Below, one piece after another: positions 11,731 through 29,079 of a stretch of DNA of 64,000 bases (position 1 is the stretch's first letter; the number at the start of each line of letters is the position of its first letter). The DNA is from Candidatus Kryptonium thompsonii (GTDB lineage Bacteria; Bacteroidota; Ignavibacteria; Kryptoniales; Kryptoniaceae): assembly GCA_001442925.1 (NCBI GenBank), contig LDXX01000006.1, positions 62,001 through 126,000 of the forward strand, read 5' to 3'. Made by a program: the position numbers and the translations under genes. Below the pieces are notes generated by a model, which was not told where the DNA came from, did no database searches, and saw only the letters and a program-made list of their open reading frames with translations.

Positions 11731-12774
11731 ATGGGAAAGCAGAGGAAGGGCATAAAGATAACTCCGGAATTAATTGAGGAAATAACAAAGTTAGTTGACG
11801 AAAGGATCCGGATCACATATGTGAAGCGAGATGATTTCGAGGGTTTGAAGGAAATAGTTAGACAACTTAGTGAAAATGTTCTTTCCCTTGCAGAAGCGCA
11901 GAGAAGGACACAAGAGGAGTTTGTATTGTTTAGAGAGATGACCGAGGAGAACTTTAGGAAGGTATGGGAGGCTATAAATCAACTCACAATTAGAGTAGAT
12001 CAGCTTGCTGAAGCGCAGAGGAGAACTGAGGAGAGGTTGGATGCATTTGAGAGGACAACTGAGGAGAATTTTAAGAGGGTATGGGAAAGCATAAATCAGC
12101 TTGCTGAGGCGCAGAGAAAGACGGAAGAGAGGCTCAGTTCACTTGCTCAAAGAGTTGATGAACTTGCTGAGGCACAGAGGAAAACGGAAGAGAGGCTCAA
12201 TTCGCTTGCTCAAAGAGTGGATGAACTTGCTGAGGCACAGAGGAAGACTGAAGAGAGCATCAATTCGCTTGCTCAAAGGGTAGATCAGCTTGCTGAGGCA
12301 CAAAGGAAGACTGAGGAGAGATTAAATCAACTTATAGCTGAGCATCAGAGGACAAGGGAGATACTTGCTGGTATTTCTGATACAGTTGGATATGGGCTTG
12401 AGGATAAGGTTATGCTTTATATGATGAAGGAGTTTGCAAGAGATGAATATGGAATTGAAGCCGAAGTAGTAGGGCGGAAGAACATTGTCTATCCGGATGG
12501 GAGATATGATGAGGTCAACATTTATATTGAGGGAAGAAGAAATGGTGAAAAGGTTTATGTGATCGGTGAATGCAAGTCGAGGCCAAGTAAGAGTGAGGTT
12601 GATAAGCTTGTCAAGAAGAGAGAAAGGTTGAGAAGTTATCTAAATGCCGATGTCTATGTTTTTATAGTTGGTTATCATTTCACACCGGAAGTTGAACTTT
12701 ATTTGCAGGAGGAATATCCTGAAGTGAAGGTATTTAGGAGTTATGAATTTGAAATGAGGTACGGGAGGAAATAA
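11731..12774 (+). CDS. Coiled-coil protein with C-terminal PD-(D/E)XK-like domain (DUF3782 type)
   Basis: A 347-residue cytoplasmic protein. Residues about 35-210 form a long coiled coil; 124-207 consist of four 21-residue (three-heptad) repeats beginning LAEAQRKTEE. The C-terminal domain (about 215-347) resembles the DUF3782 nuclease-fold family: D260 in GRYDEVN and E280-x-K282 in VIGECKS give the D...ExK pattern of PD-(D/E)XK enzymes. Proteins of this type are common, often multi-copy, in thermophiles and cyanobacteria; no function is established. The domain is preserved, so DNA binding or cleavage is possible but unproven. It precedes mutS by 20 bases, which may be chance. Confidence 0.75.
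   Translation: MGKQRKGIKITPELIEEITKLVDERIRITYVKRDDFEGLKEIVRQLSENVLSLAEAQRRTQEEFVLFREMTEENFRKVWEAINQLTIRVDQLAEAQRRTEERLDAFERTTEENFKRVWESINQLAEAQRKTEERLSSLAQRVDELAEAQRKTEERLNSLAQRVDELAEAQRKTEESINSLAQRVDQLAEAQRKTEERLNQLIAEHQRTREILAGISDTVGYGLEDKVMLYMMKEFARDEYGIEAEVVGRKNIVYPDGRYDEVNIYIEGRRNGEKVYVIGECKSRPSKSEVDKLVKKRERLRSYLNADVYVFIVGYHFTPEVELYLQEEYPEVKVFRSYEFEMRYGRK
12100..12351 (+). repeat. Four in-frame 63-bp tandem repeats
   Basis: Four consecutive 63-base units encode 21-residue coiled-coil repeats (residues 124-144, 145-165, 166-186, 187-207). The first two are nearly identical in DNA; the fourth diverges after its first half. Unit length equals three heptads, so gain or loss of a unit would lengthen or shorten the coiled coil without breaking register. 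Confidence 0.85.
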
Positions 12775-15547: not shown

Positions 15548-16333
15548 ATGCGCATCGCACAAAAAAATAGTTCAATCGAGAAAGCATTCGCGATTTTGTC
15601 TGTCTTCTCGCAGAACGGGGGGCGATTTGAGCTTGGCGTTGGGGAGATAAGTAAAATTTTGAAAATGCATAAGAGCACTGTCCATAGATTCCTTCGTTCG
15701 ATGGAGAAAGTTGGGGTCATTGAAAGAAATAATGAAACGGGGAAATACAGGTTAGGTCTTAAACTTTATGAGCTTGGGAATAGCGTCTCATTGAAAAAAA
15801 TTATGGTTGATAGAGCAAGAAAATATCTTGAGGACTTGCATTGGTATTTAAATGAAACTGTTCATTTTGCGACGCTTAAAAATGGCGAGGTTGTGTATCT
15901 TGATAAAATAATCGCCGATAGAAATTTTGTAATTATCTCAGAAGTTGGAAAAAGACTACCAGCACATTGCACGGGGCTTGGTAAGGCAATGCTTGCCTTT
16001 TTACCTGAATCAGATGTTAAGAGGATTATAAAGGAAAAGGGATTGAAAAAATTTACGAAAAATACGATCACGAATAAGAAAGATTTATTTGAAGAATTGA
16101 AGAAAATAAGAGAGTGCGGATATGCGATTGATAATGAAGAAATTGAAGATGGATTAAGGTGCATTGCTGCGCCAATTTTCAACGGCGATGGGGAGGTAAT
16201 AGCGGCGGTGAGTATCTCAGGTCCATCAAGTAGAATCAATGAGACAACTTATGAAGAATACTCAAAGCATGTAATTAAAACTGCGAGATTAATTTCAGAA
16301 GAGTTAAAAAATGTAAATTGGAGGCTTATCTAA
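15548..16333 (+). CDS. IclR-family transcriptional regulator of the aromatic operon
   Basis: A 261-residue regulator with an N-terminal winged helix-turn-helix (about 8-70, with ISKILKMHKSTVHRFLRSM) and an IclR effector-binding domain (about 75-255, containing LPAHCTGLGKAMLAF and a conserved GLRCIAAPI). IclR proteins often control aromatic catabolism, for example PcaR, PobR and CatR-type regulators. It is the first gene of the operon; its stop overlaps the start of dmpC (TAATG), so it should sense a pathway substrate or intermediate and control its own operon. AAGGAG sits only one base before the ATG, unusually close, so translation may be modest. Confidence 0.9.
   Translation: MRIAQKNSSIEKAFAILSVFSQNGGRFELGVGEISKILKMHKSTVHRFLRSMEKVGVIERNNETGKYRLGLKLYELGNSVSLKKIMVDRARKYLEDLHWYLNETVHFATLKNGEVVYLDKIIADRNFVIISEVGKRLPAHCTGLGKAMLAFLPESDVKRIIKEKGLKKFTKNTITNKKDLFEELKKIRECGYAIDNEEIEDGLRCIAAPIFNGDGEVIAAVSISGPSSRINETTYEEYSKHVIKTARLISEELKNVNWRLI
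16320..16324 (+). promoter_or_regulatory. Ribosome binding site fixing the dmpC start
   Basis: GGAGG lies 8 bases before the ATG at 16333, which overlaps the iclR stop as TAATG. This favours 16333 over an in-frame TTG at 16318, which would place the start upstream of this site. Confidence 0.7.
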
Positions 16334-17835
16334 TGAGTGTAGTAAATGAATTAACGGATAAAAAAGGTGGAGTAATAAACAAAATTCTAGAGTTAAAAAA
16401 TTTCATTGGGGGTAAATTTGTTGATTCTGTAAGTGGTAAAAGATTTGAAAGCAAATATCCTGCGACGAATGAAGTTATAGCAACTGTTCCTGAAAGTGGG
16501 AAGGAGGATGTCGAGCTTGCAGTTAAATCTGCCGTTGAGGCTTTTAAAGTATGGAGCAAGATGCCAGTTAAAGAGAGAAGCAAGTATTTGATGCGAATTT
16601 CTGAGCTTATTATGAACAAACTTGATGAGCTTTCTTATCTTGAGTCGATAGATGTTGGTAAGCCTATAAAGCTTGCCAAGGGGATGGAGGTGCCGCGGGC
16701 GTCTTATAACTTTTCCTTTTTTGCTGAATTTGCAAAATATGTTCATACAGAGTTTTATGAAACGGATGATCGGGGTGCAATAAATTATGTTTTGAGGCGT
16801 CCAGTTGGCGTTGCTGGTCTTATAACGCCTTGGAATCTTCCGCTTTTGCTCACGACTTGGAAAGTCGCTCCTTGTCTTGCTGCCGGTAATACTTGTATAA
16901 TAAAACCTTCTGAACTTACGCCGATAACTGCGACAAAGCTTGCTGAAATCGCAGCTGAAGCTGGGCTTCCAGATGGTGTTTTAAATGTTGTTCATGGGTT
17001 TGGTCCAAATTCTGCTGGCGAATTTATAGTTTCTCATCCAGATGTTAAGTTAATTTCACTCACGGGGGAAACAACAACAGGGCAGGCAATAATGAGAGCT
17101 GCATCCCAGCACTTGAAAAAGTTATCTTTTGAACTTGGCGGGAAAAATCCAAATATAATCTTTGCTGACGCAGACATTGAGCAGGCGCTTGATGTGACAA
17201 TTCAATCAAGTTTTTCAAATCAGGGTGAGGTTTGTCTTTGTGGTTCAAGGATTTATGTTGAGAGAAAAATTTACGATGAATTCGTGGAGAAACTTGTGGA
17301 AAGAGCTAAAAGAGTTAAAGTTGGTGATCCATTAGATCCCGAAACCGATATGGGGGCTTTGATAAGTGAGGAACATTTACATAAAGTTCGCACCTACCTT
17401 GAAATTGCGGTCGCTGATGGAGGAAAAATTTTAACAGGGGGCAAAACACCTGAGCACCTTCCTGAAAAATTTAAATCTGGCAATTGGCTTGAGCCTACCG
17501 TGATAGTGGGGTTAAATGATAATTGTAGAGTGGTGAAAGAAGAAATTTTTGGACCAGTGGTAACCGTTTCGCCATTTGATGCCGAGGAAGAAGTAATTGA
17601 AAGAGCAAACAATACTCATTATGGGTTAAGCGCAACTATATGGACAAGGGATTTAGCCCGAGCACATAGGGTAGCTGCACAAATTGAAGCTGGGGTTATA
17701 TGGATTAACACATGGTTTTTGAGGGATTTGAGAACGCCTTTCGGTGGAATGAAGATGAGTGGAATTGGAAGAGAGGGCGGAATTTATAGTTTTGAGTTCT
17801 ACACAGAGTTGAAAAATGTATGCATAAAGTTGTGA
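16333..17835 (+). CDS. dmpC: 2-hydroxymuconic semialdehyde dehydrogenase
   Basis: Oxidises the ring-cleavage product 2-hydroxymuconic semialdehyde to 4-oxalocrotonate with NAD, the first step of the oxalocrotonate branch. The 500-residue protein has the aldehyde dehydrogenase core: GVAGLITPWNLPL (cofactor site), general base E267 in FELGGKNPN and nucleophile C301 in NQGEVCLCGSR, followed by KEEIFGPV. The NQGEVCLCGSR form and the closing tail (FYTELKNVCIKL) are characteristic of the DmpC/XylG group rather than generic betaine-aldehyde enzymes. It is coupled to iclR by a 1-base overlap. Confidence 0.93.
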   Translation: MSVVNELTDKKGGVINKILELKNFIGGKFVDSVSGKRFESKYPATNEVIATVPESGKEDVELAVKSAVEAFKVWSKMPVKERSKYLMRISELIMNKLDELSYLESIDVGKPIKLAKGMEVPRASYNFSFFAEFAKYVHTEFYETDDRGAINYVLRRPVGVAGLITPWNLPLLLTTWKVAPCLAAGNTCIIKPSELTPITATKLAEIAAEAGLPDGVLNVVHGFGPNSAGEFIVSHPDVKLISLTGETTTGQAIMRAASQHLKKLSFELGGKNPNIIFADADIEQALDVTIQSSFSNQGEVCLCGSRIYVERKIYDEFVEKLVERAKRVKVGDPLDPETDMGALISEEHLHKVRTYLEIAVADGGKILTGGKTPEHLPEKFKSGNWLEPTVIVGLNDNCRVVKEEIFGPVVTVSPFDAEEEVIERANNTHYGLSATIWTRDLARAHRVAAQIEAGVIWINTWFLRDLRTPFGGMKMSGIGREGGIYSFEFYTELKNVCIKL

Positions 17836-17859: not shown

Positions 17860-18669
17860 GTGATAGACGCAAATAAACTTTATCAAAATATGCCCGATTA
17901 TATTGAAAAATTTGCCGAGGAATTATACTGGGCAGAAGTGAATTTAAAGCCAATTGAACCCTTAACATCAAGGAATGGGAATATTACGATTGAAGATGCG
18001 TATAAGATACAGATTAAAAATGTTGATAGGAAGTTGAAAAATGGGTGGAAGATAAAGGGGAAGAAGATAGGCATTACAAGTTATGCGGTTCAAAAAATGT
18101 TGAATGTAAATCAGCCCGACTTCGGCTATCTTTTTGACACGATGTATGTTGAAGATGGGGGCGTTGTTAAACTTGACAGTTTAATTCAGCCGAGGGTTGA
18201 AGGGGAGATCGCATTTGTTATGGAAAAAGATTTAAAGGGTCCTGGCGTCACAGTGGCGGATGTTTTGAAAGCTACTGCATTTGTTGTCCCGTCGATTGAA
18301 ATTGTTGACAGTAGAATTAAGGACTGGAAGATAAGGATTCAAGATACGATCGCTGATAATGCTTCTTCGGGTTTATTTGTTTTGGGTGGGAAGAAGACAG
18401 TTGTGGATAATCTTGATTTTAGATGTCTTGGTATGATACTTGAGCAAAATGGTGAAGTTGTTGTTTCGGGTGCTGGTGCAGCTTCACTTGGAAATCCTGT
18501 AAAAGCTGTTGCATGGCTTGCAAATAAACTTGCAGAGTTTGGAGAATATTTAAGAGCTGGTGAGGTTGTTCTTTCGGGGGCGCTTGCCCAACTTGTGGTT
18601 CCAAAGAAAGGTGACTTTTTCAAAGTATCTATTCAAAAACTTGGAAGTGTAAGTGTGAAATTTGAATAG
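17860..18669 (+). CDS. dmpE: 2-hydroxypenta-2,4-dienoate (2-oxopent-4-enoate) hydratase
   Basis: Adds water to 2-oxopent-4-enoate to give 4-hydroxy-2-oxovalerate. The 269-residue protein belongs to the hydratase/decarboxylase family. The motif GKKIGITSYAVQ...NQPDFGYLF matches the hydratases (MhpD/DmpE) rather than the decarboxylases, and the metal-site acids are seen in EGEIAFVME and SIEIVDSR. It starts with GTG at 17860. The paralogue at 20983 is the decarboxylase; the two differ clearly at the QPDFG position. It keeps the same place relative to dmpF-G-H-I as in Pseudomonas dmp operons. Confidence 0.88.
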   Translation: MIDANKLYQNMPDYIEKFAEELYWAEVNLKPIEPLTSRNGNITIEDAYKIQIKNVDRKLKNGWKIKGKKIGITSYAVQKMLNVNQPDFGYLFDTMYVEDGGVVKLDSLIQPRVEGEIAFVMEKDLKGPGVTVADVLKATAFVVPSIEIVDSRIKDWKIRIQDTIADNASSGLFVLGGKKTVVDNLDFRCLGMILEQNGEVVVSGAGAASLGNPVKAVAWLANKLAEFGEYLRAGEVVLSGALAQLVVPKKGDFFKVSIQKLGSVSVKFE

Positions 18670-18679
18670 GAGTTAAACA

Positions 18680-18940
18680 ATGTATGTAAAGTTTACAAGA
18701 TTTCTTGACAGGTTTGTTGAATTTCGTCTTTCACATTATTCCGACTGGCTTGAGTCAGGAAACCTTGTGATGCCATACGAGATATTCGAGGATTTCAGGG
18801 TGAAAAATAAAATTGTTCTTGTCGCAGATAGCGAAGAAGATAAAAATAAAATTAACGAATACTTGAAACATCTTGTGAGATTGAAGATAAAATCACCTGA
18901 AGAAATCGACATAGACGAATATTTCCCAATAAAATTTTAA
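18680..18940 (+). CDS. Small protein, candidate DmpK-like phenol hydroxylase assembly subunit
   Basis: An 86-residue soluble protein with no signal peptide, encoded 10 bases after dmpE and 7 bases before dmpF, with GGAG before the ATG. I do not recognise it with certainty. Its first half (KFTR...RFVEFRL...[17 protein letters not shown]) follows the pattern I recall for the DmpK/PoxA small subunit (FVEF...LP...F..F...N), the one component otherwise missing from this hydroxylase gene set. DmpK helps load iron into the oxygenase. If correct, the gene has moved from its usual place before dmpL. Otherwise it is an unnamed pathway-associated protein. Confidence 0.6.
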
Positions 18941-18947
18941 TTCAAAA

Positions 18948-19913
18948 ATGTCGGCTGAATATAAAAATGGCAAAGTTAAGTGTATAATTGTTGGCAGTGG
19001 GAACATAGGGACTGACCTTTTGATAAAAATTTTGCGATATTCGAAGAATCTTGAACCAGTTATGATGGTTGGTATAGATCCAAATTCTGATGGGCTTGCG
19101 CGCGCAAAGCGACTTGGAATAGAGACAACTTATGAGGGGATAGATGGTTTTTTAAAGAGGAAAGATTTAGTTGATGCGGTTGATATAATTTTTGAAGCCA
19201 CAAGTGCTAAAGCCCATATTCAAAATGCGCCGATTTATAAAGAGCTTGGTAAGATTGCAATTGATTTAACTCCGGCTGCCTTGGGTCCTTATGTGGTTCC
19301 ACCTGTAAACTTAGGTGAACACCTTGACAAGTTAAATGTTAATCTAATAACATGTGGTGGGCAGGCAACAATTCCGATGGTTTATGCGGTTTCACGAGTT
19401 GTTAAGGTTCATTATGCCGAAATAGTTTCTTCAGTTGCAAGCAAAAGTGCGGGACCTGGGACAAGGCAGAATATAGATGAATTCACTCAAACGACAGCGA
19501 AAGGTCTTGAGGTTATAGGTGGAGCAAGGAAAGGGAAAGCGATAATAATTCTGAACCCAGCTGAACCGCCAATAATTATGAGAAATACGGTTTACACGAT
19601 AACGGATGAATGCGATAGCGAAGATATTCGTGAATCAATTTATCAAATGGTTGATGAGGTGAAAAAATATGTGCCAGGGTATAATTTAAAATCGGAGCCA
19701 ATATTTGACCCGCTTGATAAATATCCGATAAGAATACCTGGGTATGGTGAATTCAAACGTGGATATAAAGTTACAATTCTGCTTGAAATTGAAGGGGCTG
19801 GGCATTACTTGCCCAAGTATGCAGGGAACCTTGATATAATGACATCGGCAGCTCTTAGAGTTGGAGAACTTTTTGCGGAGAAAATTTTAAGGGAAAAATC
19901 AGTTGTCCAATAA
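18948..19913 (+). CDS. dmpF: Acetaldehyde dehydrogenase (acetylating)
   Basis: Converts acetaldehyde, CoA and NAD to acetyl-CoA, receiving acetaldehyde channelled from the aldolase DmpG. The 321-residue protein has the Rossmann motif [12 protein letters not shown] near residue 15 and the catalytic C136 in [12 protein letters not shown], both diagnostic for the DmpF/MhpF family. It is followed after 18 bases by dmpG, as in other meta-pathway operons, in keeping with the known DmpFG complex. Confidence 0.95.
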
Positions 19914-19931: not shown

Positions 19932-20969
19932 ATGGAAGGTAAAAAAATTATCATAAATGATGTAACCCTTCGCGATGGGATGCATGCGATGTCCCATCAA
20001 TATGAAATTGAAGATATGGTGGAGATAGCGAAAGCACTTGATGAGGCTGGGGTTGATATAATCGAAGTTTCTCACGGTGATGGGCTTGCGGGGAATGCGA
20101 TAAACTACGGTTTTTCGAAGTATCCCGAGACTGAGTATATATCCGCTGTTGCAGGTGTGTTAAAAAATGCAAAACTTGATGTTTTGCTTCTGCCGGGAAT
20201 TGGAACAATTGAAGATCTTGAAGTTGTGATTGACCTTGGCGTCAAGGTTGTGAGGATAGCGACACATTGCACCGAGGCTGATATAGCAATTCAGCATATT
20301 GAATATTCAAAAGGTAAAGGACTTGATGTTGTTGGATTTTTAATGATGGCTCATATGATCTCACCTGATGAGCTTGTGAAACAGGCAAAAATTATGGAGA
20401 GCGCGGGGGCTGATTGTGTCTATGTTGTTGATTCCGCTGGAGCGATGTTACCCCAAGATGTAGCTGATAGAATCAAGGCTTTTAAGGATAATTTAAATTG
20501 TCAAGTTGGTTTTCATGCGCATAATAACCTTTCGCTTGGTGTTGCGAATTCACTTGCGGCTGTTCAAAGTGGGGCTGATAGAATTGATGCGTCACTTTGC
20601 GGGCTCGGTGCAGGCGCTGGGAATGCACCACTTGAAGTTTTAATTGCTGTTTTCAACAAAGCCGGAATTAAAACGAGTTGCGACCTATATAAACTTATGG
20701 ACGCAGCTGAAGATATTGTCAGACCTATGATGAAAAGGAAAGGAGTTGAAGTTGTGATTGACAGAGATAGTTTATCGCTTGGTTATGCTGGGGTTTACTC
20801 GTCATTTTTACTCCATGCGAAAAGAGCTTCACAAAGATTTGGCGTTGACACAAGGGATATTTTGTTTGAACTTGGCAGACGGAGGATGGTTGGAGGACAA
20901 GAGGATATGATAATTGACGTTGCTGTTGAACTTGCAAATGGCTTGAAAAATGAACTTGAGGTTAAATAA
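19932..20969 (+). CDS. dmpG: 4-hydroxy-2-oxovalerate aldolase
   Basis: A class II pyruvate aldolase that splits 4-hydroxy-2-oxovalerate into pyruvate and acetaldehyde. The 345-residue protein has the HMGL-like TIM barrel with [12 protein letters not shown] (catalytic Arg, metal-binding Asp, and a His used as base), SHGDGLAG and the metal-binding GFHAHNNL. The C-terminal communication domain, which contacts DmpF, is present. A GGAG site precedes the ATG. The stop lies 13 bases before the chosen dmpH start. Confidence 0.95.
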
Positions 20970-20982
20970 AGGATTTGAAAAG

Positions 20983-21789
20983 ATGCCCAAGAGAAGAGAA
21001 AAAAATAAAAATGGCAAATTAAGGCAAATAGCAAATTATCTGCACCAATGTGAAATTGAGAGGAAAGAAGCAGAACAAATCGTTAAGATACACCCTGAAA
21101 TAGGTATTGATGAGGCGTACCTTATCCAGAGGGAACTTGTCAAACTTAAATTATCTCGGGGGGACAAAATCATTGGGTATAAGCTTGCTTTCACAACTAG
21201 GACCAAGCAAAGATCAATGGGGATTTCAACTGTTGGATTTGGTTATCTTTTTGACTATATGAAAATAGATGATGGGGGTGAACTTAATTTAAATGATGTG
21301 ATTCATCCGAAGGCGGAGGCTGAAATTGCCTTTATAATTGGTGAAGATTTGTCAGGCGATGTTTCACCTTATGAGGTTATTGAGGCGACGAAGTTTGTTG
21401 CTCCAGCGATTGAATTTGTTGATTCAAGATATAAGGATTTTAAGTTTGAATTGGTTGATGTCATCTCTGATAATTTTTCAGCTTCGCGATTTGTAATTGG
21501 CTCTGACGTTAAAAAACCGAGCGAGGTTGATTTGAGATTATCGGGTGTAATTTTTGAGAGGAACGGTGTTGTTGAAAAAACCGGGGCTTTGGGGGCTGTG
21601 CTTGGAAATCCCGCTATAGCAGTTTCTCAACTTGTAAAATTCCTTTCAAAGCGAGGAGAAAAGGTAAAGGCTGGAAGTATAATTCTTACCGGGAGTATAA
21701 CTGAGGCTATTGAAGTTAAAGAAGGTGATTTTATCCGTGTGTCAATATGTGGAGTTGGGGAAGTTTCAACTTATATAGTGAAAAAATAA
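20983..21789 (+). CDS. dmpH: 2-oxo-3-hexenedioate (4-oxalocrotonate) decarboxylase
   Basis: Decarboxylates 2-oxo-3-hexenedioate to 2-hydroxypenta-2,4-dienoate. It is a paralogue of the dmpE hydratase, but the segment IIGYKLAFTTRTKQRSMGIS...GFGYL matches decarboxylases (GYKLG.TSRAK). Metal-site acids appear in AEAEIAFIIGEDL and IEFVDSR. The ATG at 20983 is chosen because AAAGGA ends 9 bases before it; an in-frame ATG at 20950 inside dmpG would add 11 residues. Its N-terminus is unusually basic (PKRREKNKNGK). In homologues it forms a complex with the hydratase. Confidence 0.88.
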   Translation: MPKRREKNKNGKLRQIANYLHQCEIERKEAEQIVKIHPEIGIDEAYLIQRELVKLKLSRGDKIIGYKLAFTTRTKQRSMGISTVGFGYLFDYMKIDDGGELNLNDVIHPKAEAEIAFIIGEDLSGDVSPYEVIEATKFVAPAIEFVDSRYKDFKFELVDVISDNFSASRFVIGSDVKKPSEVDLRLSGVIFERNGVVEKTGALGAVLGNPAIAVSQLVKFLSKRGEKVKAGSIILTGSITEAIEVKEGDFIRVSICGVGEVSTYIVKK

Positions 21790-21800
21790 AAAGGTTTTAT

Positions 21801-22028
21801 ATGCCAGTAGTGATAATTCACATGCTTTCTGGAAGAAGCTCGGAGATGAAAAGAAAGTTAATCAAAAAGGTTACAGATGCAGTTGTTGATTCATTAAATG
21901 TTAAGCCGGAGAGCGTCAGGGTGATAATAAATGAAGTTGATAAGGAAAATTTTGCTGTTGCTGGGTTGCCAATCGAGGAATATAGAGCTAAGAACGGGTT
22001 AAGTAAAGTTAAAAGCAAAAATAAATAA
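21801..22028 (+). CDS. dmpI: 4-oxalocrotonate tautomerase
   Basis: Isomerises 2-hydroxymuconate (4-oxalocrotonate) to 2-oxo-3-hexenedioate, the substrate of DmpH. The mature protein starts with the catalytic Pro directly after the initiator Met (MPVVIIHMLSGRS), which fixes the start at 21801. Arg residues in SGRSSE and SVRVIINE correspond to the Arg11 and Arg39 used for substrate binding. At 75 residues it has a short basic C-terminal extension compared with the usual 62. Confidence 0.92.
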   Translation: MPVVIIHMLSGRSSEMKRKLIKKVTDAVVDSLNVKPESVRVIINEVDKENFAVAGLPIEEYRAKNGLSKVKSKNK

Positions 22029-22044: not shown

Positions 22045-23073
22045 ATGTCTGTACAATATGAGATCAAACAAAAGGTAATCGAACCAAAGCGGTTAGCTTT
22101 TGATTATCTCCTAAAGCGTTATGGAAACAGACCGGCTTCGAGGTATGAAGAAGCAACGGTTGATATTCAGCAGAGAGAGAACTTTCATTATCGCCCAACA
22201 TGGAGAGAGGGGGTAGAGATTTTTGATGTGAATTATTCTGAGTTAAAGTTGACAGATTATTATTCTTTTCTTGACCCAAGGCAGTATTACTATTATACTT
22301 ACAATGCAACAAGAGCAAAAAATTATGAGGCGGTTGATAAGTATTTTGAGTTTTGCGAGGAGCGCGGGCTTTTTGAGAAGGTGAATGAGGATTGGCTTAA
22401 GGTTTTTAACAGATATTTCATACCCTTGAGACATCTTGAATATGCAGGATGGATTTTATTGGTTGGGGTTGCGAGATTTGGCTATGGAACTTCTATAACT
22501 CAATGTGCGGAATTTAACGCATGTGATAAGTATGGCAATGCTCAACTTATAACGAGGATTGCATTTGAGCTTCCTGAGCCTGATGGAGATATTTTTGAAA
22601 ACGCTAAAAAGACATGGCTTGAGGACAAAATCTTTCAACCTTTGCGTGAGTATGTTGAAAAATTGTTAACCATTCAAGATTGGGGTGAGGTTTTGATAGG
22701 ACAAAATCTTGCAATTGATGTGTTTGTTAATCCCCTCGTTCACATTGAACTTGATAATCTCGCTGTTGAAAATGGAGTTACAACTTTTTCATTCTTTAGC
22801 AAGTATTTCTATGATATGTACAAAGATAATATGCGGTGGACGGAAAAGCTTTTTGAGGTTTTACTTTCCGACCCAAATTATGGGGAGAACAACAGGAAAT
22901 TCATTGAGTCAAAACTAAATTATTACGCTGGACAAATTTCGAAAGCAATTGATGAATTTGCAGATGTATTTAAGATGCCTAAGAAAAAAGGTGATTTCAA
23001 AAAAGCAAAGGAGAATGTGTTAAACCATGCGCGTGAGGTTTATGGTAAACTTGGCCTAAACATTAAAATTTAA
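22045..23073 (+). CDS. dmpL: Phenol hydroxylase beta subunit (P1)
   Basis: The structural beta chain of a soluble diiron multicomponent phenol hydroxylase; it pairs with DmpN in an (alpha-beta-gamma)2 hydroxylase. The 342-residue protein has the family's features: an RPTWREGVEIFD segment, DYYSFLDPRQYYYYTYNATRA and helices around LLVGVARFGYGTS. It belongs to the ferritin-like superfamily but lacks the EXXH iron ligands, as expected for this subunit. It lies 16 bases after dmpI with a strong GGAGGT site. Confidence 0.93.
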   Translation: MSVQYEIKQKVIEPKRLAFDYLLKRYGNRPASRYEEATVDIQQRENFHYRPTWREGVEIFDVNYSELKLTDYYSFLDPRQYYYYTYNATRAKNYEAVDKYFEFCEERGLFEKVNEDWLKVFNRYFIPLRHLEYAGWILLVGVARFGYGTSITQCAEFNACDKYGNAQLITRIAFELPEPDGDIFENAKKTWLEDKIFQPLREYVEKLLTIQDWGEVLIGQNLAIDVFVNPLVHIELDNLAVENGVTTFSFFSKYFYDMYKDNMRWTEKLFEVLLSDPNYGENNRKFIESKLNYYAGQISKAIDEFADVFKMPKKKGDFKKAKENVLNHAREVYGKLGLNIKI

Positions 23074-23088
23074 AAGGGAGGTACGAAA

Positions 23089-23391
23089 ATGGTAGCAGTA
23101 GAAACAAAGAGAGAAAGGTTCGTATCGGTTGACCTTCAGAAGACAGAGGAAGGTTATAATGTTCTTCGGGCAATTTTAAAGGATAATCCTGATGCAAAAG
23201 TTGATGAATTTCCAGGCTATTACAAGGTCAAGCATTCAAATAAGCTTACTATCAAGCGTGAGACTGTTGAAAGCTTTATGGGGCGTCCTTGGGATACGCA
23301 GGAGTTTAACCTTGTTATAATTTCGTATTCTGGAAATTTCGCTGAGTGGGATGATGAAAAAATAGTCATTCAGTGGGACACGCATATGTAA
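23089..23391 (+). CDS. dmpM: Phenol hydroxylase regulatory component (P2)
   Basis: The cofactorless effector protein of the MmoB/DmpM family, which binds the hydroxylase and tunes the diiron site and substrate access. The 100-residue protein begins with a short charged tail, followed by FVSVDLQKTEEGYNVLRAIL, a Gly-Tyr turn (FPGYYKVK), and the strand NLVIISYSGNFAEWDDE typical of the family. It lies 15 bases after dmpL with GGGAGGT upstream. Confidence 0.93.
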   Translation: MVAVETKRERFVSVDLQKTEEGYNVLRAILKDNPDAKVDEFPGYYKVKHSNKLTIKRETVESFMGRPWDTQEFNLVIISYSGNFAEWDDEKIVIQWDTHM

Positions 23392-23428
23392 AAAGTTTAA
23401 AAACAAAAACCAACGGAGGTGCAAGGCT

Positions 23429-24967
23429 ATGGCTAAAAAGAAATTAACACTGGCTCAAAAGTATCATATCTATACGCGTGGGTTGGACTGGGAGCCAACT
23501 TATGTGAGCAAAAAGGATATTTATCCTTATGCTGAATATGAAGGGATTAAAATTAAGGATTGGAATAAGTGGGAGGATCCATTCAGAATGACTGTTGAAG
23601 CATATTGGAAATATCAGGCTGAGAAAGACAGGCGTTTTTATGCAATTCTTGATGGCTTCATTCAGAATCAAGGTCATTTGACCCTTTCTGATGCAAGATA
23701 TTTGAATTCAATTAAGCTTTTTATTCAAGGTGTTACACCGCTTGAGTATATGGCACATCGCGGTTTTGCTTTCGTAGCAAGACATTTGCCAGGACCTGGA
23801 CCAAGGACGGCAGCATTTTTCCAATCGATGGATGAGTTAAGGCATACGCAAATTGAAGTTCACGCAGGAAGCAACTTTAACAAATATTACGATGGTTTTC
23901 ATTCGATGACGCTTATGCATGATAGGGTTTGGTATTTAAGCGTTCCGAAATCTTATTTTGATGACGCAGTCACAGCTGGTCCATTTGAGTATGTGACCGC
24001 AATTTCGTTTTCGTTTGAGTATGCCCTTACTAATCTACTTTTCGTTCCGTTTATGTCGGGGGCAGCATATAACGGCGATACGCCGACGATGACATTTGGA
24101 TTTAGCGCGCAATCTGATGAATCAAGACATATGACACTTGGACTTCAAGTTGTGAAGTTCTTGCTTGAACAACATGAGGATAATGTTCCAATAATTCAAA
24201 GATGGATTGACAAATGGTGGTGGCGTGGTTATAGGTTGACATCTCTCGTTGGGGCTATGATGGATTATATGCTTCCGAAGAGAGTTATGTCGTGGAAGGA
24301 ATCATTTGAACTTTACATCGAGGATCAGATTCTTGAAGGATTATTCAGGGATCTTGAAAGGTATGGGATCAGACCACCGTTGCATATGGAGCAATCAATC
24401 AAGGAGAAGGAATTCTTATCGCATGATGTTTACTGGATCTTGTTCTCGTTTACATTTGCAGCTGCTTTCCATTCATGGATTCCGAAAGAAGAGGAAATGG
24501 AATGGCTTGCGGAGAAATATCCAAGGACATTTAATCAGTATTATCGTTGGAGATATGAAAAGGCAAAACAAGCGAAGACACCACTTCCAGGGGACAGATT
24601 CTATTATATCGGTTTGCCACAACTGTGTCAAGTTTGCCAGATACCGATGGGCTTTACAGATCCCGATGATCCAAATAATTTTGTTCAGAGATATGTTGAG
24701 TATGAAGGAGAAATTTATCATTTCTGTTCCGATGGTTGCAAGTGGATATTTGAACAAGAACCAGAGAAATATGTTCAAGCATGGCTACCTGTTCATGAGA
24801 TTTATAAGGGTAATTGCTTTGCTGAGCCACCGAAAGGACCAGATGATGTTGTACCGCAAGTTTTGAAGTGGTATAATATCCAGACAGACAATTTCGATTA
24901 CTTTGTCTCCGAAGATTACAAGAATTGGAAAGAGTGGCATAAAGACATGGCAACTGTTGTTGTTTAG
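23429..24967 (+). CDS. dmpN: Phenol hydroxylase alpha subunit, diiron oxygenase (P3)
   Basis: The catalytic chain that inserts oxygen ortho to the phenolic hydroxyl, giving catechol. All six carboxylate/His iron ligands are visible with the right spacing: E106, E136-x-x-H139 (DELRH), E197 (FSFEYA) and E231-x-x-H234 (DESRH). The C-terminal region has a YHS-like cysteine quartet, C400/C403 and C433/C437, consistent with the zinc site of phenol hydroxylase alpha chains. At 512 residues the length is normal. A terminator-like hairpin follows it inside the operon. Confidence 0.95.
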   Translation: MAKKKLTLAQKYHIYTRGLDWEPTYVSKKDIYPYAEYEGIKIKDWNKWEDPFRMTVEAYWKYQAEKDRRFYAILDGFIQNQGHLTLSDARYLNSIKLFIQGVTPLEYMAHRGFAFVARHLPGPGPRTAAFFQSMDELRHTQIEVHAGSNFNKYYDGFHSMTLMHDRVWYLSVPKSYFDDAVTAGPFEYVTAISFSFEYALTNLLFVPFMSGAAYNGDTPTMTFGFSAQSDESRHMTLGLQVVKFLLEQHEDNVPIIQRWIDKWWWRGYRLTSLVGAMMDYMLPKRVMSWKESFELYIEDQILEGLFRDLERYGIRPPLHMEQSIKEKEFLSHDVYWILFSFTFAAAFHSWIPKEEEMEWLAEKYPRTFNQYYRWRYEKAKQAKTPLPGDRFYYIGLPQLCQVCQIPMGFTDPDDPNNFVQRYVEYEGEIYHFCSDGCKWIFEQEPEKYVQAWLPVHEIYKGNCFAEPPKGPDDVVPQVLKWYNIQTDNFDYFVSEDYKNWKEWHKDMATVVV

Positions 24968-24989
24968 TTTATAACTTTTCAAACAATTG

Positions 24990-25016
24990 GGGCGGGTAAT
25001 TCTAACCCGCCCTTTT
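24990..25016 (+). terminator. Intra-operon hairpin between dmpN and dmpO
   Basis: GGGCGGGT (24990-24997), a 7-base loop, ACCCGCCC (25005-25012), then TTTT: an 8-bp perfect GC-rich stem with a short T-run. It looks like a weak intrinsic terminator or a transcript-stabilising 3' hairpin. Because dmpO-P-D-Q-B continue on the same strand with no clear new promoter, partial read-through is expected. Confidence 0.7.
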
Positions 25017-25045
25017 AAAAAGAAAAATAAATAAGGAGGTTTAAA

Positions 25046-25369
25046 ATGCCCGTTAAAGCCCTTTACAATTACAAGTTCCCCCCTCGCGATAGAGCGGAAG
25101 TTTTTGGAGATGATATCTTGGTGTATGCCTACTGGATTGATAATCCTTTCTTTTGCTCTGCTTCAGCTTGGAGAGTTCCCAAAAATATGAAATGGAAAGA
25201 CTTCGTAGCGCAAATCTTTGGTCAACTCTACGGACTTGATCCTGATTTTAAGAAGGTGAAATCTTGGAAATGGTATCATTTTGATCAGGAATTTAATCCA
25301 AGCGATGAAAAGACATTGGCTGAGCTTGGCTTGCGACATAAGTCAATTGTTAAGTTTAAACCTGCATAG
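25046..25369 (+). CDS. dmpO: Phenol hydroxylase gamma subunit (P4)
   Basis: The small gamma chain of the hydroxylase. The 107-residue protein matches the P4 family: an N-terminal PVKALYNYKFPPRDRAEVFGDD, a central NPFFCSASAWRVPKNMKWKDF and a ubiquitin-like fold ending LGLRHKSIVKFKPA. It contains no cofactor motif. It has a strong AAGGAGG site and is the first gene after the internal hairpin. Confidence 0.93.
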   Translation: MPVKALYNYKFPPRDRAEVFGDDILVYAYWIDNPFFCSASAWRVPKNMKWKDFVAQIFGQLYGLDPDFKKVKSWKWYHFDQEFNPSDEKTLAELGLRHKSIVKFKPA

Positions 25370-25391
25370 AAACAAAAAATCTTGAAACTTT

Positions 25392-26459
25392 ATGAAATAT
25401 AAAGTTAGAATAGAGCCGATTGGAGTTGAAGTAAGTTGCGATGGAAATCAAACAATACTTGATGCATGTTTAAGAAATGGAGTTTGGGTCCCGCATGCTT
25501 GCACTCACGGGACCTGTGCAACTTGTAAATCAAGGATCATTGAAGGTGAAGTTGATTTTGGTCTTGCTTCGAATTTCGCGCTGATGGATTTTGAAAGAGA
25601 GGAAGGTTATGTTCTGCTGTGCACCGCAAAACCGAGAACAAATCTTGTGATTGAAGCTGATGTTGAAGTTGAAGAAGGAATTGAATTCTATCCAGTGAAG
25701 GACTTCACTGGTAAGGTTGTTGAAATTTTAGATTGCGCACGGGATACGCGCAAAATTCAAATTGAAATCGAGAATGATAAAATCTTTTATCTTGCGGGTC
25801 AATACATTCAACTTTACATTCCAGGAACGGAGCAAAATCGCGCTTATTCAATTGCATCAAGACCGTTGAAGGATGGGAATTCCACGATTGAGCTTCACAT
25901 AAAGAGGGTACCTGGTGGTCTTGGGTCAGGATATGTTTTTGAGGAATTAAAGGAGGGAGACAAGGTTAGATTTGCGGGCCCGTTTGGCAGGTTTATTTTT
26001 AGGAAAAATTTCGATAATCCAATTCTTTTTTTGGCTGGTGGAACTGGACTTGCCCCAATTAAAGCTATGATACTCGATGCTATCTCAAATGGTTTGAAAC
26101 AAGAAATGTATCTTTTTCATGGTGTGAGATCGACGCGGGATTTGTATGATAAAGATGTTTTTGAGGAGATCGAAAGAGAAAATCCAAACTTTCATTATAT
26201 CCCTGCTTTGTCAGAGAAATTGCCCGAAGATGAGTGGGATGGCGAACTTGGTTTTGTTCATGAAGTCCTTGAAAGAAAATTTCAGAAATTTTCTGGTTTC
26301 AAAGCTTACATTTCAGGACCACCACCCATGGTTGACGCTTGTATAAAAGTATTAATGCGTGGAAGATTGTTTGCTGAAGATATTTACACTGAGAAGTTTT
26401 TCACTGAAAAAGATAGAATTGAAGGAGGTTCAAAAGTTGGCATTATATCAAGAATTTGA
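25392..26459 (+). CDS. dmpP: Phenol hydroxylase reductase (P5), FAD/2Fe-2S
   Basis: Passes electrons from NADH through FAD and a plant-type 2Fe-2S centre to the diiron site. The 355-residue protein starts with a ferredoxin domain, ligands C37, C42, C45 and C77 (CTHGTCATC...LLC), then an FAD domain with RAYSIASRP and a nucleotide domain with LAGGTGLAPIKAM. Domain order and length are those of DmpP. The last 23 bases overlap the chosen dmpD start. Confidence 0.95.
   Translation: MKYKVRIEPIGVEVSCDGNQTILDACLRNGVWVPHACTHGTCATCKSRIIEGEVDFGLASNFALMDFEREEGYVLLCTAKPRTNLVIEADVEVEEGIEFYPVKDFTGKVVEILDCARDTRKIQIEIENDKIFYLAGQYIQLYIPGTEQNRAYSIASRPLKDGNSTIELHIKRVPGGLGSGYVFEELKEGDKVRFAGPFGRFIFRKNFDNPILFLAGGTGLAPIKAMILDAISNGLKQEMYLFHGVRSTRDLYDKDVFEEIERENPNFHYIPALSEKLPEDEWDGELGFVHEVLERKFQKFSGFKAYISGPPPMVDACIKVLMRGRLFAEDIYTEKFFTEKDRIEGGSKVGIISRI
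26422..26428 (+). promoter_or_regulatory. Ribosome binding site selecting the dmpD TTG start
   Basis: AAGGAGG ends 8 bases before a TTG at 26437 that is in frame with dmpD. The nearest in-frame ATG codons (26359, deep inside dmpP, and 26480) have no comparable site, so TTG is preferred. Confidence 0.65.
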
Positions 26460-27306
26460 AATCAAAGATGAAAGCAAGATGATCGATTTGAAAAAGCTTG
26501 AGGTTGGCGATTATGAGGTGATAGGAGGGATAAAAACACATTTTCATAGGGCTGGCTCTGGGAAGCCAATTGTATTTCTTCATGGCTCAGGTCCCGGAGT
26601 TTCTGCGTGGGCGAATTGGAGATTGACATTGCCATATTTTGCTGAAAACGGTTTTGAGGTTTTTGCTCCGGATATAGTTGGATTTGGGTATACCGAAAGG
26701 CCGAAAGATTTTGAATATACTCATAGAAATAGGGTCAAGCATGTCATTGACTTCATCAAGCATTTTGATCTTAAAGAAGTTAACATTGTTGGTAATTCGA
26801 TGGGGGGAGCCATTGCCCTTGCGGTTGCACTTGAAATTCCGGAGAGAATCAGAAAGCTTGTGATAATGGGAAGCGTTGGTGTTAAGTTCCCTATAACGAA
26901 TGGGCTTGTAACCGTCTGGGGGTATAAGCCAAGCATCGAGAATATGAGAAAAGTTATTGAGGCTCTTTCAAGTAATCCATCACTTGTCGGCGAAGATTTG
27001 ATTCGTATGAGATATGAAGCATCAATTCAACCGGGATTTCAAGAGACATATGAAAAAATGTTTTATCCACCTTATCAAAAGCACATCGATGAAATGGATG
27101 TTGAAGATAGGTTAGGTGAGATAAAAGTGCCAACCCTTGTAATTCATGGAAAGCTTGATAAAGTTATACCCTACCAAATTAGTGTGAGAATTTTTGAGAA
27201 ATTGCCAAACGCTGAACTTCATATTTTTGGTGATTGCGGGCATTGGACGCAAATTGAAAAGAGAGATGAATTTAACGAGCTTGTGAAGAGTTTTTTAAGT
27301 CGTTAG
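26437..27306 (+). CDS. dmpD: 2-hydroxymuconic semialdehyde hydrolase
   Basis: An alpha/beta hydrolase of the C-C bond hydrolase group that cleaves 2-hydroxymuconic semialdehyde (or 2-hydroxy-6-oxohepta-2,4-dienoate from methylphenols) to 2-oxopent-4-enoate plus formate (or acetate). Motifs are the oxyanion turn HGSGPGVSAWANW, nucleophile Ser in GNSMGGA, Asp in HGKLDKVIP and His in CGHWTQIEK. About 289 residues from the TTG start, close to DmpD/XylF. Having both dmpD and dmpC means both branches of the meta pathway are encoded, so methyl-substituted phenols could also be used. Confidence 0.9.
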   Translation: MALYQEFEIKDESKMIDLKKLEVGDYEVIGGIKTHFHRAGSGKPIVFLHGSGPGVSAWANWRLTLPYFAENGFEVFAPDIVGFGYTERPKDFEYTHRNRVKHVIDFIKHFDLKEVNIVGNSMGGAIALAVALEIPERIRKLVIMGSVGVKFPITNGLVTVWGYKPSIENMRKVIEALSSNPSLVGEDLIRMRYEASIQPGFQETYEKMFYPPYQKHIDEMDVEDRLGEIKVPTLVIHGKLDKVIPYQISVRIFEKLPNAELHIFGDCGHWTQIEKRDEFNELVKSFLSR

Positions 27307-27344: not shown

Positions 27345-27770
27345 ATGTTGACTCAAAGCAAATATGTTTTAACATCTGAACTTGCGAGAGAAATAGTAAA
27401 TAAAGCGGAAGAGGAAGCTAAAAAATATGGAGTTAGTGTATGTATTGCTGTGGTTGATGATGGTGGAAACTTAGTTGAGTTCAGGAGGATGACAGGTGCG
27501 CCGATTTTGAGCATTGGCATATCGCAAGACAAAGCATATACTGCGGTTGCCTTTGGCATCCCAACGAGTGAATGGTATAAATTGATAAAAGATGAACCAG
27601 CGCTTTTATATGGAATAGTGCACACGCCAAGGTTGATAATTTTCGGTGGTGGATTGCCAATAAAGTTAAATGGGCAAATAATTGGTGGAATAGGCGTAAG
27701 TGGTGCCACTGCTCAACAAGATGAGGAAATCGCAAGGGCTGGTGCTTCAATTGTTCAAAAAGTTAAATGA
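27345..27770 (+). CDS. HbpS/GlcG-like protein (DUF336)
   Basis: A 141-residue cytoplasmic protein of the GlcG/HbpS (DUF336) family, recognised from ALYGIVHTPRLIIFGGGLPI, the GQIIGGIGVSGATAQQDEEIARAG ending pattern and overall size. Some members bind haem (HbpS of Streptomyces); others sit in aromatic, glycolate or diol operons without known function. It lies 38 bases after dmpD and 9 bases before dmpQ. A role in protecting or loading the redox components is possible but cannot be shown from sequence. The ATG has only a weak ribosome binding site. Confidence 0.85.
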   Translation: MLTQSKYVLTSELAREIVNKAEEEAKKYGVSVCIAVVDDGGNLVEFRRMTGAPILSIGISQDKAYTAVAFGIPTSEWYKLIKDEPALLYGIVHTPRLIIFGGGLPIKLNGQIIGGIGVSGATAQQDEEIARAGASIVQKVK

Positions 27771-27779
27771 AGTAAAGGT

Positions 27780-28133
27780 ATGAACAACGAAGTTACTTTT
27801 AAGATACATCTTATACCTAATGGAATAAGCTTTATATGTAAAGCTGGTGAAACAATCCTTGACGCTGCGTTAAAGGCTGGGATTGAATTACCGCACGGTT
27901 GCACAAAAGGTGGCTGTGGAGTTTGTAAAATCAAAGTTAAAGGGAAGGTTGATTTCGGTAGGGTTTCAAAGGTTATGCTTACAGATCAAGAAAAAGAGAG
28001 TGGATTTTGTCTCTCTTGTAGAGCTGTTCCACTTGAGGACTTGGAAATAAGCTTAATTGATGGGTCGATGGTAAAAGTTATCCGATATGATGACTTTTAT
28101 TCATTTCTTTTTAAAACAAGGGCAAATCTTTAA
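27780..28133 (+). CDS. dmpQ: Plant-type 2Fe-2S ferredoxin for catechol dioxygenase reactivation
   Basis: A 117-residue ferredoxin with cluster ligands C41, C46, C49 (CTKGGCGVC) and C77. In meta-cleavage operons the XylT/DmpQ ferredoxin reduces the active-site iron of catechol 2,3-dioxygenase after oxidative inactivation, especially by 4-methylcatechol. The gene lies 22 bases before dmpB, the same neighbourhood as in Pseudomonas. The C-terminal tail of about 25 residues is longer than a bare ferredoxin core. Confidence 0.9.
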   Translation: MNNEVTFKIHLIPNGISFICKAGETILDAALKAGIELPHGCTKGGCGVCKIKVKGKVDFGRVSKVMLTDQEKESGFCLSCRAVPLEDLEISLIDGSMVKVIRYDDFYSFLFKTRANL

Positions 28134-28155: not shown

Positions 28156-29079
28156 ATGCCATTCAGAATTTCTCGTTTGGGTTATGTTGAGGTCAAGGTA
28201 CTTGACCTCGACGATGCGCTTGATTTTTACACAAATGTTCTTGGGCTTCGTTTAGTTGAGAGATTAGGAAATAAGGCATACTTGAAAACATGGGATGATC
28301 AGCTTGCTTATAGCGTTATATTGACTGAGTCGGATACGGCTGGGATGGTAAGAGCAGCTTTCAGGACGGTTGATCCTGAAGATGTTGATTATTTTGAGAG
28401 AAAGTTAAAGCAATACGAGGTTCCTTACGAGGTTATACCAGAGGATTATAAACGTGGTAAAGCTTTGAGATTTAAAACGCCCTCAGGCCATACTTTTGAA
28501 ATTTTCAATGAAATTGAAATCCCAGGGAATTATCTCCCTAAGGAAAGCCCAGATCCATGGCCAAGGGACTTGAAATCAGATGCGATAAATCCACCCAAGA
28601 TTGACCATACATTGATTACAGCGCCTGATCCGACGAAGATGATAAAGTTTTGTGAAGAGGTGCTTGAATTTAGAGCGACGGAATATATTGTGAATAATGA
28701 AGGTCAACCAATAGCTGCATGGTTATATCAAGCAAGACAGCAACCACACGATCTTGCCATTGTGCCTGGGCGAGAAGCCGGTATGCATCATTTTGCATTT
28801 CATATTTCAAGTGCACAGGATATTTTCCGTGCAGCAGATATAATGGTTATGAACGATGTTAAAATTGATTGGGGTCCAGGGCGTCATGGAATAACGCGCG
28901 GTTCTGGTATTTATTTCTTTGATCCATTTGGAAATAGAATTGAAACTTTCGGCGGATACACTGCATATCTCTACGATCCAGGTGCAAAGCCAATTGTTTG
29001 GACTGAGGAGACGATGGGTAAAGGCATATTCTATTATGAACGTAAGCTTGTTGAAACATTCTTAACGGTTTACACATAA
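28156..29079 (+). CDS. dmpB: Catechol 2,3-dioxygenase
   Basis: The extradiol ring-cleavage enzyme converting catechol to 2-hydroxymuconic semialdehyde. The 307-residue, two-module vicinal-oxygen-chelate protein carries all iron ligands in the second module: H151 (KIDHTLI), H212 (GMHHFAF) and E263 (RIETFGG). Acid-base residues H198 and H244 and Tyr253 correspond to His199, His246 and Tyr255 of XylE. It is the last gene of the operon, preceded by the strong ACGGAGGTGC site and followed by a strong terminator. Placing the ring-cleavage gene last is unusual. Confidence 0.95.
   Translation: MPFRISRLGYVEVKVLDLDDALDFYTNVLGLRLVERLGNKAYLKTWDDQLAYSVILTESDTAGMVRAAFRTVDPEDVDYFERKLKQYEVPYEVIPEDYKRGKALRFKTPSGHTFEIFNEIEIPGNYLPKESPDPWPRDLKSDAINPPKIDHTLITAPDPTKMIKFCEEVLEFRATEYIVNNEGQPIAAWLYQARQQPHDLAIVPGREAGMHHFAFHISSAQDIFRAADIMVMNDVKIDWGPGRHGITRGSGIYFFDPFGNRIETFGGYTAYLYDPGAKPIVWTEETMGKGIFYYERKLVETFLTVYT

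Follow-up and report, generated by a model that had tools for sequence, protein, structure and literature searches.

The window, by which we mean the whole stretch of 64,000 nucleotides of Candidatus Kryptonium thompsonii DNA that was analysed, contains an operon of phenol hydroxylase and meta-cleavage genes arranged in the order IclR-type regulator, dmpC, dmpE, a small dmpK-like gene, dmpF, dmpG, dmpH, dmpI, dmpL, dmpM, dmpN, dmpO, dmpP, dmpD, an HbpS-like gene, dmpQ and dmpB. The features on which our analysis is based are as follows.

15548-16333, plus strand: IclR-type regulator (Pfam IclR_C), just upstream of the operon
16318-17835, plus strand: dmpC, 2-hydroxymuconic semialdehyde dehydrogenase (TIGR03216 is the best NCBIfam model, with a score slightly below its cut-off; start of the reading frame uncertain)
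17860-18669, plus strand: dmpE, 2-oxopent-4-enoate hydratase (best NCBIfam model TIGR03220, 353.6 bits against a cut-off of 408.8)
18668-18672, plus strand: AGGAG ribosome-binding site of the dmpK-like gene, 7 nt before its start, read from the sequence
18680-18940, plus strand: dmpK-like gene, 86 aa, putative divergent auxiliary or assembly subunit of phenol hydroxylase
18713-18724, plus strand: FVEF motif (residues 12-15), matching VEF of DmpK
18764-18775, plus strand: LVMP motif (residues 29-32), matching ELxLP of DmpK
18785-18808, plus strand: FEDFRVKN motif (residues 36-43), matching AFxxFCxxN of DmpK, with Arg40 at the place of the DmpK cysteine
18948-19913, plus strand: dmpF, acetaldehyde dehydrogenase (acylating) (TIGR03215)
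19932-20969, plus strand: dmpG, 4-hydroxy-2-oxovalerate aldolase (TIGR03217)
20950-21789, plus strand: dmpH, 4-oxalocrotonate decarboxylase (best NCBIfam model TIGR03218, 260.3 bits against a cut-off of 350.55)
21801-22028, plus strand: dmpI, 4-oxalocrotonate tautomerase (Pfam Tautomerase), filling the slot before dmpL that is normal for dmpK
22045-23073, plus strand: dmpL, hydroxylase beta subunit (aligns with annotated plasmid DmpL)
23089-23391, plus strand: dmpM, regulatory protein (Pfam MmoB_DmpM, above cut-off)
23429-24967, plus strand: dmpN, diiron hydroxylase alpha subunit (53-60% identical to phenol hydroxylases annotated on plasmids)
25046-25369, plus strand: dmpO, hydroxylase gamma subunit (Pfam Phenol_monoox, above cut-off)
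25392-26459, plus strand: dmpP, ferredoxin-FAD reductase (NCBIfam scan)
26359-27306, plus strand: dmpD-type alpha/beta hydrolase, overlapping dmpP (start of the reading frame uncertain)
27345-27770: HbpS-like gene between dmpD and dmpQ
27780-28133, plus strand: dmpQ-type [2Fe-2S] ferredoxin (Pfam Fer2)
28156-29079, plus strand: dmpB, catechol 2,3-dioxygenase (TIGR03211, above cut-off)

An earlier reading of the sequence alone had placed the small gene between dmpE and dmpF and had found every hydroxylase component except a DmpK in front of dmpL. Both statements are borne out: the best NCBIfam models for the two flanking genes agree with the assignment (that for dmpE below its cut-off), the hydroxylase genes dmpL, dmpM, dmpN, dmpO and dmpP are intact, and dmpI precedes dmpL with no dmpK candidate between the two. 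The diiron motifs of DmpN are invariant in comparison with annotated plasmid phenol hydroxylases. The HbpS-like gene is missing from the corresponding place in a close relative, L022 (between 18636 and 18656). Outside the operon, at 11731-12774, lies a gene for a coiled-coil protein in which a unit of about 21 aa is repeated (AEAQRKTEERLNSLAQRVDQL). This protein is 347 aa long in the window and 304 aa in L022, so that the number of its repeats evidently varies.

The small reading frame starts with ATG and ends with TAA after 86 codons; the dmpE stop lies 10 bp before it, and dmpF follows 7 bp after its own stop. Among seven sampled genomes of the genus (Candidatus Kryptonia/Thermokryptus) six carry an orthologue, with amino-acid identities of 80-94%, and in the loci read, in the window as well as in relatives including L022, the flanks are constant, with dmpE on the upstream and dmpF on the downstream side. 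Each of the five genus genomes with a completeness of at least 93% has both the gene and dmpO, the latter about 6.2-6.4 kb farther downstream; in a 71% complete genome (G005) it shares a contig with dmpL, dmpM and part of dmpN, in L022 it likewise belongs to an operon with dmpLMNOP, and the seventh genome (G001, 78% complete) has neither the gene nor dmpO. A scan for promoters and terminators gave counts near chance and no element that separates the gene from the rest of the operon. One could argue from its shortness, and from the lack of any database annotation above cut-off, that the frame is a spurious, untranslated stretch between dmpE and dmpF. We give practically no credence to this explanation, as the frame is kept in six genomes, has a ribosome-binding site and fits tightly into the operon, and the selection test has already refuted it: wherever dS could be estimated, dN/dS is about 0.04-0.08, and the changes are concentrated at the third codon position. 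The gene is real, and strong purifying selection acts on it.

What the gene encodes is less evident from standard annotation. Scanned as a single sequence against Pfam and NCBIfam, the protein gave nothing above cut-off, and its identity appears to lie outside the coverage of these family models. The sequence-only reading had tentatively suggested a relocated DmpK, pointing to the pattern FVEF, LVMP and F-x-D-F-x-x-x-N; all three elements are present in this order, the third as FEDFRVKN, and with them the conserved frame of DmpK motifs, VEF, LxxP and FxxFxxxN. We assembled an independent DmpK profile that includes no Kryptonia sequence; its 11 members, plasmid-borne proteins annotated as DmpK (Proteobacteria and Arcobacter), all match Pfam PF06099 (Phenol_hyd_sub). 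Applied to the 1,002 open reading frames of the window, the profile gave our protein 19.6 bits and the runner-up 5.2; applied to the whole 2.6-Mb genome, it returned this protein as the single match (E 0.0027); and in 391 genomes of the class its top six ranks were the six Kryptonia copies (E 1e-4 to 3e-3), followed at rank seven by a match of E 0.011 inside a 1,145-aa frame.

Comparison of the alignments themselves led in the same direction. Using hhalign, the six orthologues aligned with DmpK at a probability of 91.6% (P 8e-7) with the motifs in register. The Kryptonia alignment is shallow, and for this reason the result was calibrated by column shuffling, in which the best of 300 shuffles scored 24.2 (best shuffle P 5e-4) as against 37.8 for the real alignment; in a corresponding HMM test the orthologues averaged 21.0 bits, and the best mean among 2,000 shuffles was 4.9. 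Reciprocally, a profile of the Kryptonia proteins searched against 2,247 reading frames of plasmid loci placed DmpKs at all ranks from 1 to 6 and all 12 DmpKs of these loci within the top 15. The check proposed earlier, a profile search against the DmpK family, thus succeeded with the independent profile and hhalign, and in part with Pfam: PF06099 weakly matches four of the six orthologues, with a best E of 0.0054 and all below its curated cut-off of 25 bits, and does not match the window copy. The profile, shuffle, reciprocal and Pfam results taken together argue for homology to DmpK and not for a chance motif, and we consider the frame to be very probably a long-diverged DmpK of the phenol-oxidising enzyme.

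A small lineage-specific protein unrelated to DmpK, perhaps DUF1398-like, with motifs arisen by chance or convergence, would be consistent with the fact that the window copy matches DUF1398 (PF07166) at a sub-threshold E of 0.019 and PF06099 not at all, and that single-sequence and pattern searches of genome contigs, plasmids and viral contigs found no relatives beyond the genus (the genome-contig search added two further Kryptonia and no other source). However, none of the 11 real DmpKs shares the DUF1398 match, for which reason we rejected it as noise together with weak matches to NTE_Ploop and PRK01022; in the same Pfam scan of the orthologues PF06099 (0.0054) outperforms DUF1398 (0.019); and the shuffle controls, the reciprocal search and the genome-wide ranking all favour DmpK, which makes an unrelated origin very unlikely in our opinion.

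Structure prediction was of middling confidence. The best AlphaFold model (pLDDT 77, with the other four at 42-57) has three strands, the third of them at LVMP, then a helix at FxxFxxxN and a second helix, and Foldseek and VIA-align searches with this model gave no match that rose above the noise (E 0.5 or higher; Z 3.4 at best). Our search of viral contigs found no DmpK. Two records of Acinetobacter phage MD-2021a (H61, H62) carry a complete gene for a phenol hydroxylase alpha subunit and are possibly misfiled bacterial or plasmid contigs. Separately, a partial DmpK match covering query residues 36-85, with about 48% identity among the matches listed, turned up in about 300 plasmids (for instance, H100-H122), the majority from Salmonella, E. 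coli and Acinetobacter; seemingly, these matches are truncated dmpK genes carried by mobile regions.

According to our analysis the protein is a very distant member of the family. Its mean identity to proteobacterial counterparts is 23.8%, compared with 30.9% for DmpL, 34.4% for DmpM, 31.0% for DmpO and 57.6% for DmpN, and within the proteobacterial set the corresponding values are 39.8% for DmpK, 45.5% for DmpL, 46.4% for DmpM, 42.2% for DmpO and 65.0% for DmpN; from this comparison of DmpK with L, M and O it follows that the divergence of our protein exceeds that of the other small subunits to some degree, though not wildly. Across the hydroxylase genes (22045-26459) DmpN keeps about 58% identity to the proteobacterial enzymes and L, M and O keep 31-34%, which means that the partners have diverged far more than the catalytic subunit. 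All six orthologues have Arg40 in place of the cysteine of the FC motif, which is invariant in the 11 sampled DmpKs; the VEL step of DmpK reads SGN or SGE in the orthologues; and the invariant glutamate of the ELxLP strand is retained in four of the six and replaced by Asn28 in the window copy (18761-18763) and in its nearest relative, L002. The C-terminal third cannot be aligned confidently with DmpK, and the tail is longer. The location differs as well: dmpK directly precedes dmpL in every plasmid locus with a dmpK in reach, and our gene does not, being separated from dmpL by the block dmpFGHI and thus found four genes from the usual place. No sampled proteobacterial operon has the gene in this position, and the direction of the move is something that we infer. 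The earlier suggestion that the subunit had moved and diverged thus agrees with what we see.

These differences may raise the question of whether the protein still performs the work of a DmpK. Members of the family bind the oxygenase and have been linked to the formation of the iron-loaded enzyme. We propose that the small gene encodes an auxiliary subunit for the multicomponent phenol hydroxylase whose genes (dmpLMNOP) lie about 3.1 kb downstream. This subunit would bind the hydroxylase DmpLNO, promote iron loading or retention in the diiron site, so giving the active enzyme, and then leave or be displaced from it. In Pseudomonas sp. OX1, according to a secondary source, the hydroxylase gains affinity for iron through PHK (PMC7570240). 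A descendant of DmpK with a changed job, such as a stabiliser of the DmpF-DmpG dehydrogenase-aldolase channelling complex or a heat-stability factor, would account for the position directly before dmpF and then dmpG in the genomes read, and for the extended tail and the absence of the invariant cysteine, the loss of which would then reflect the new role. On the other hand, acting together needs no adjacency within one operon, L, M and O are nearly as diverged and have kept their role, and the genome would be left without any other DmpK to fill the original function, so we regard such a replacement of function as quite unlikely. Somewhat broader is the idea that, in thermophiles, a cysteine-less DmpK descendant beside dmpFG has had its role altered or extended: it might, for instance, load iron in a heat-tolerant way through another contact, or connect the hydroxylase with the lower pathway. 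This too we consider unlikely. Whole-genome searches by Pfam scan and by the DmpK profile revealed no second DmpK, and a clear dmpK elsewhere, which would have spoken against the original suggestion, is therefore not to be found in this genome. Since the genome has no second DmpK and the gene remains in the company of dmpLMNOP, the same role as that of DmpK is the best reading, and we very probably deal with a highly diverged DmpK (P0/PHK), one that would most likely work much as other DmpKs do.

The operon itself was probably acquired by the genus. A search of 395 sampled genomes of the phylum detected DmpN in that of the window and in none of the other 394, and in 391 genomes of the class dmpO was seen in this genus only, the one exception being a match below cut-off in a broken frame; it is the failure to find these genes in the other sampled genomes that suggests acquisition. 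In the DmpN tree the Kryptonia sequence falls inside the phenol hydroxylases, apart from two outgroups, and without a resolved sister. The phenol/catechol pathway in Kryptonia is not new, because the catechol meta-cleavage potential of the group was reported earlier (PMC4737851).

What our analysis would add is the missing subunit of the phenol hydroxylase in an uncultured, thermophilic hot-spring lineage, a DmpK of Kryptonia that escapes family search at standard cut-offs. The strong selection on the gene argues that even at high temperature the DmpK subunit is not dispensable. A very distant homologue without the conserved cysteine also bears on whether DmpK function needs this residue, and it would probably supply structural studies with a heat-stable DmpK, the copy of the PDB that we searched having no DmpK sequence.

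All in all, we see here a known component in a diverged form, with its gene relocated. With DmpK/PhK/PHK (P0, PF06099) it shares the motif order VEF, LxxP, FxxFxxxN, the operon with LMNOP, the single copy, the profile similarity and the size class (86 aa, as against 57-99 aa in the 11 sampled DmpKs); it differs in its identity of about 24%, in scores below the Pfam cut-off, in the arginine in place of cysteine, in its other tail and in the slot between dmpE and dmpF. MimG and Ycf54 are accessory proteins of other diiron monooxygenases which likewise aid maturation (PMC7570240), and we saw no relation between their sequences and ours. At the level of the operon, several proteobacterial phenol operons that we compared have a sigma-54-dependent regulator of the DmpR type beside dmpK, as opposed to the IclR-type regulator which heads the operon in the window, and the same difference holds against the dmp operon. 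The Pseudomonas dmp operon has the order KLMNOPQBCDEFGHI, and K-L-M-N-O-P was seen in the plasmid loci; all hydroxylase and meta-cleavage genes are present in both the Pseudomonas operon and that of the window, if the small gene is counted as dmpK, and it is the gene order that differs between them.
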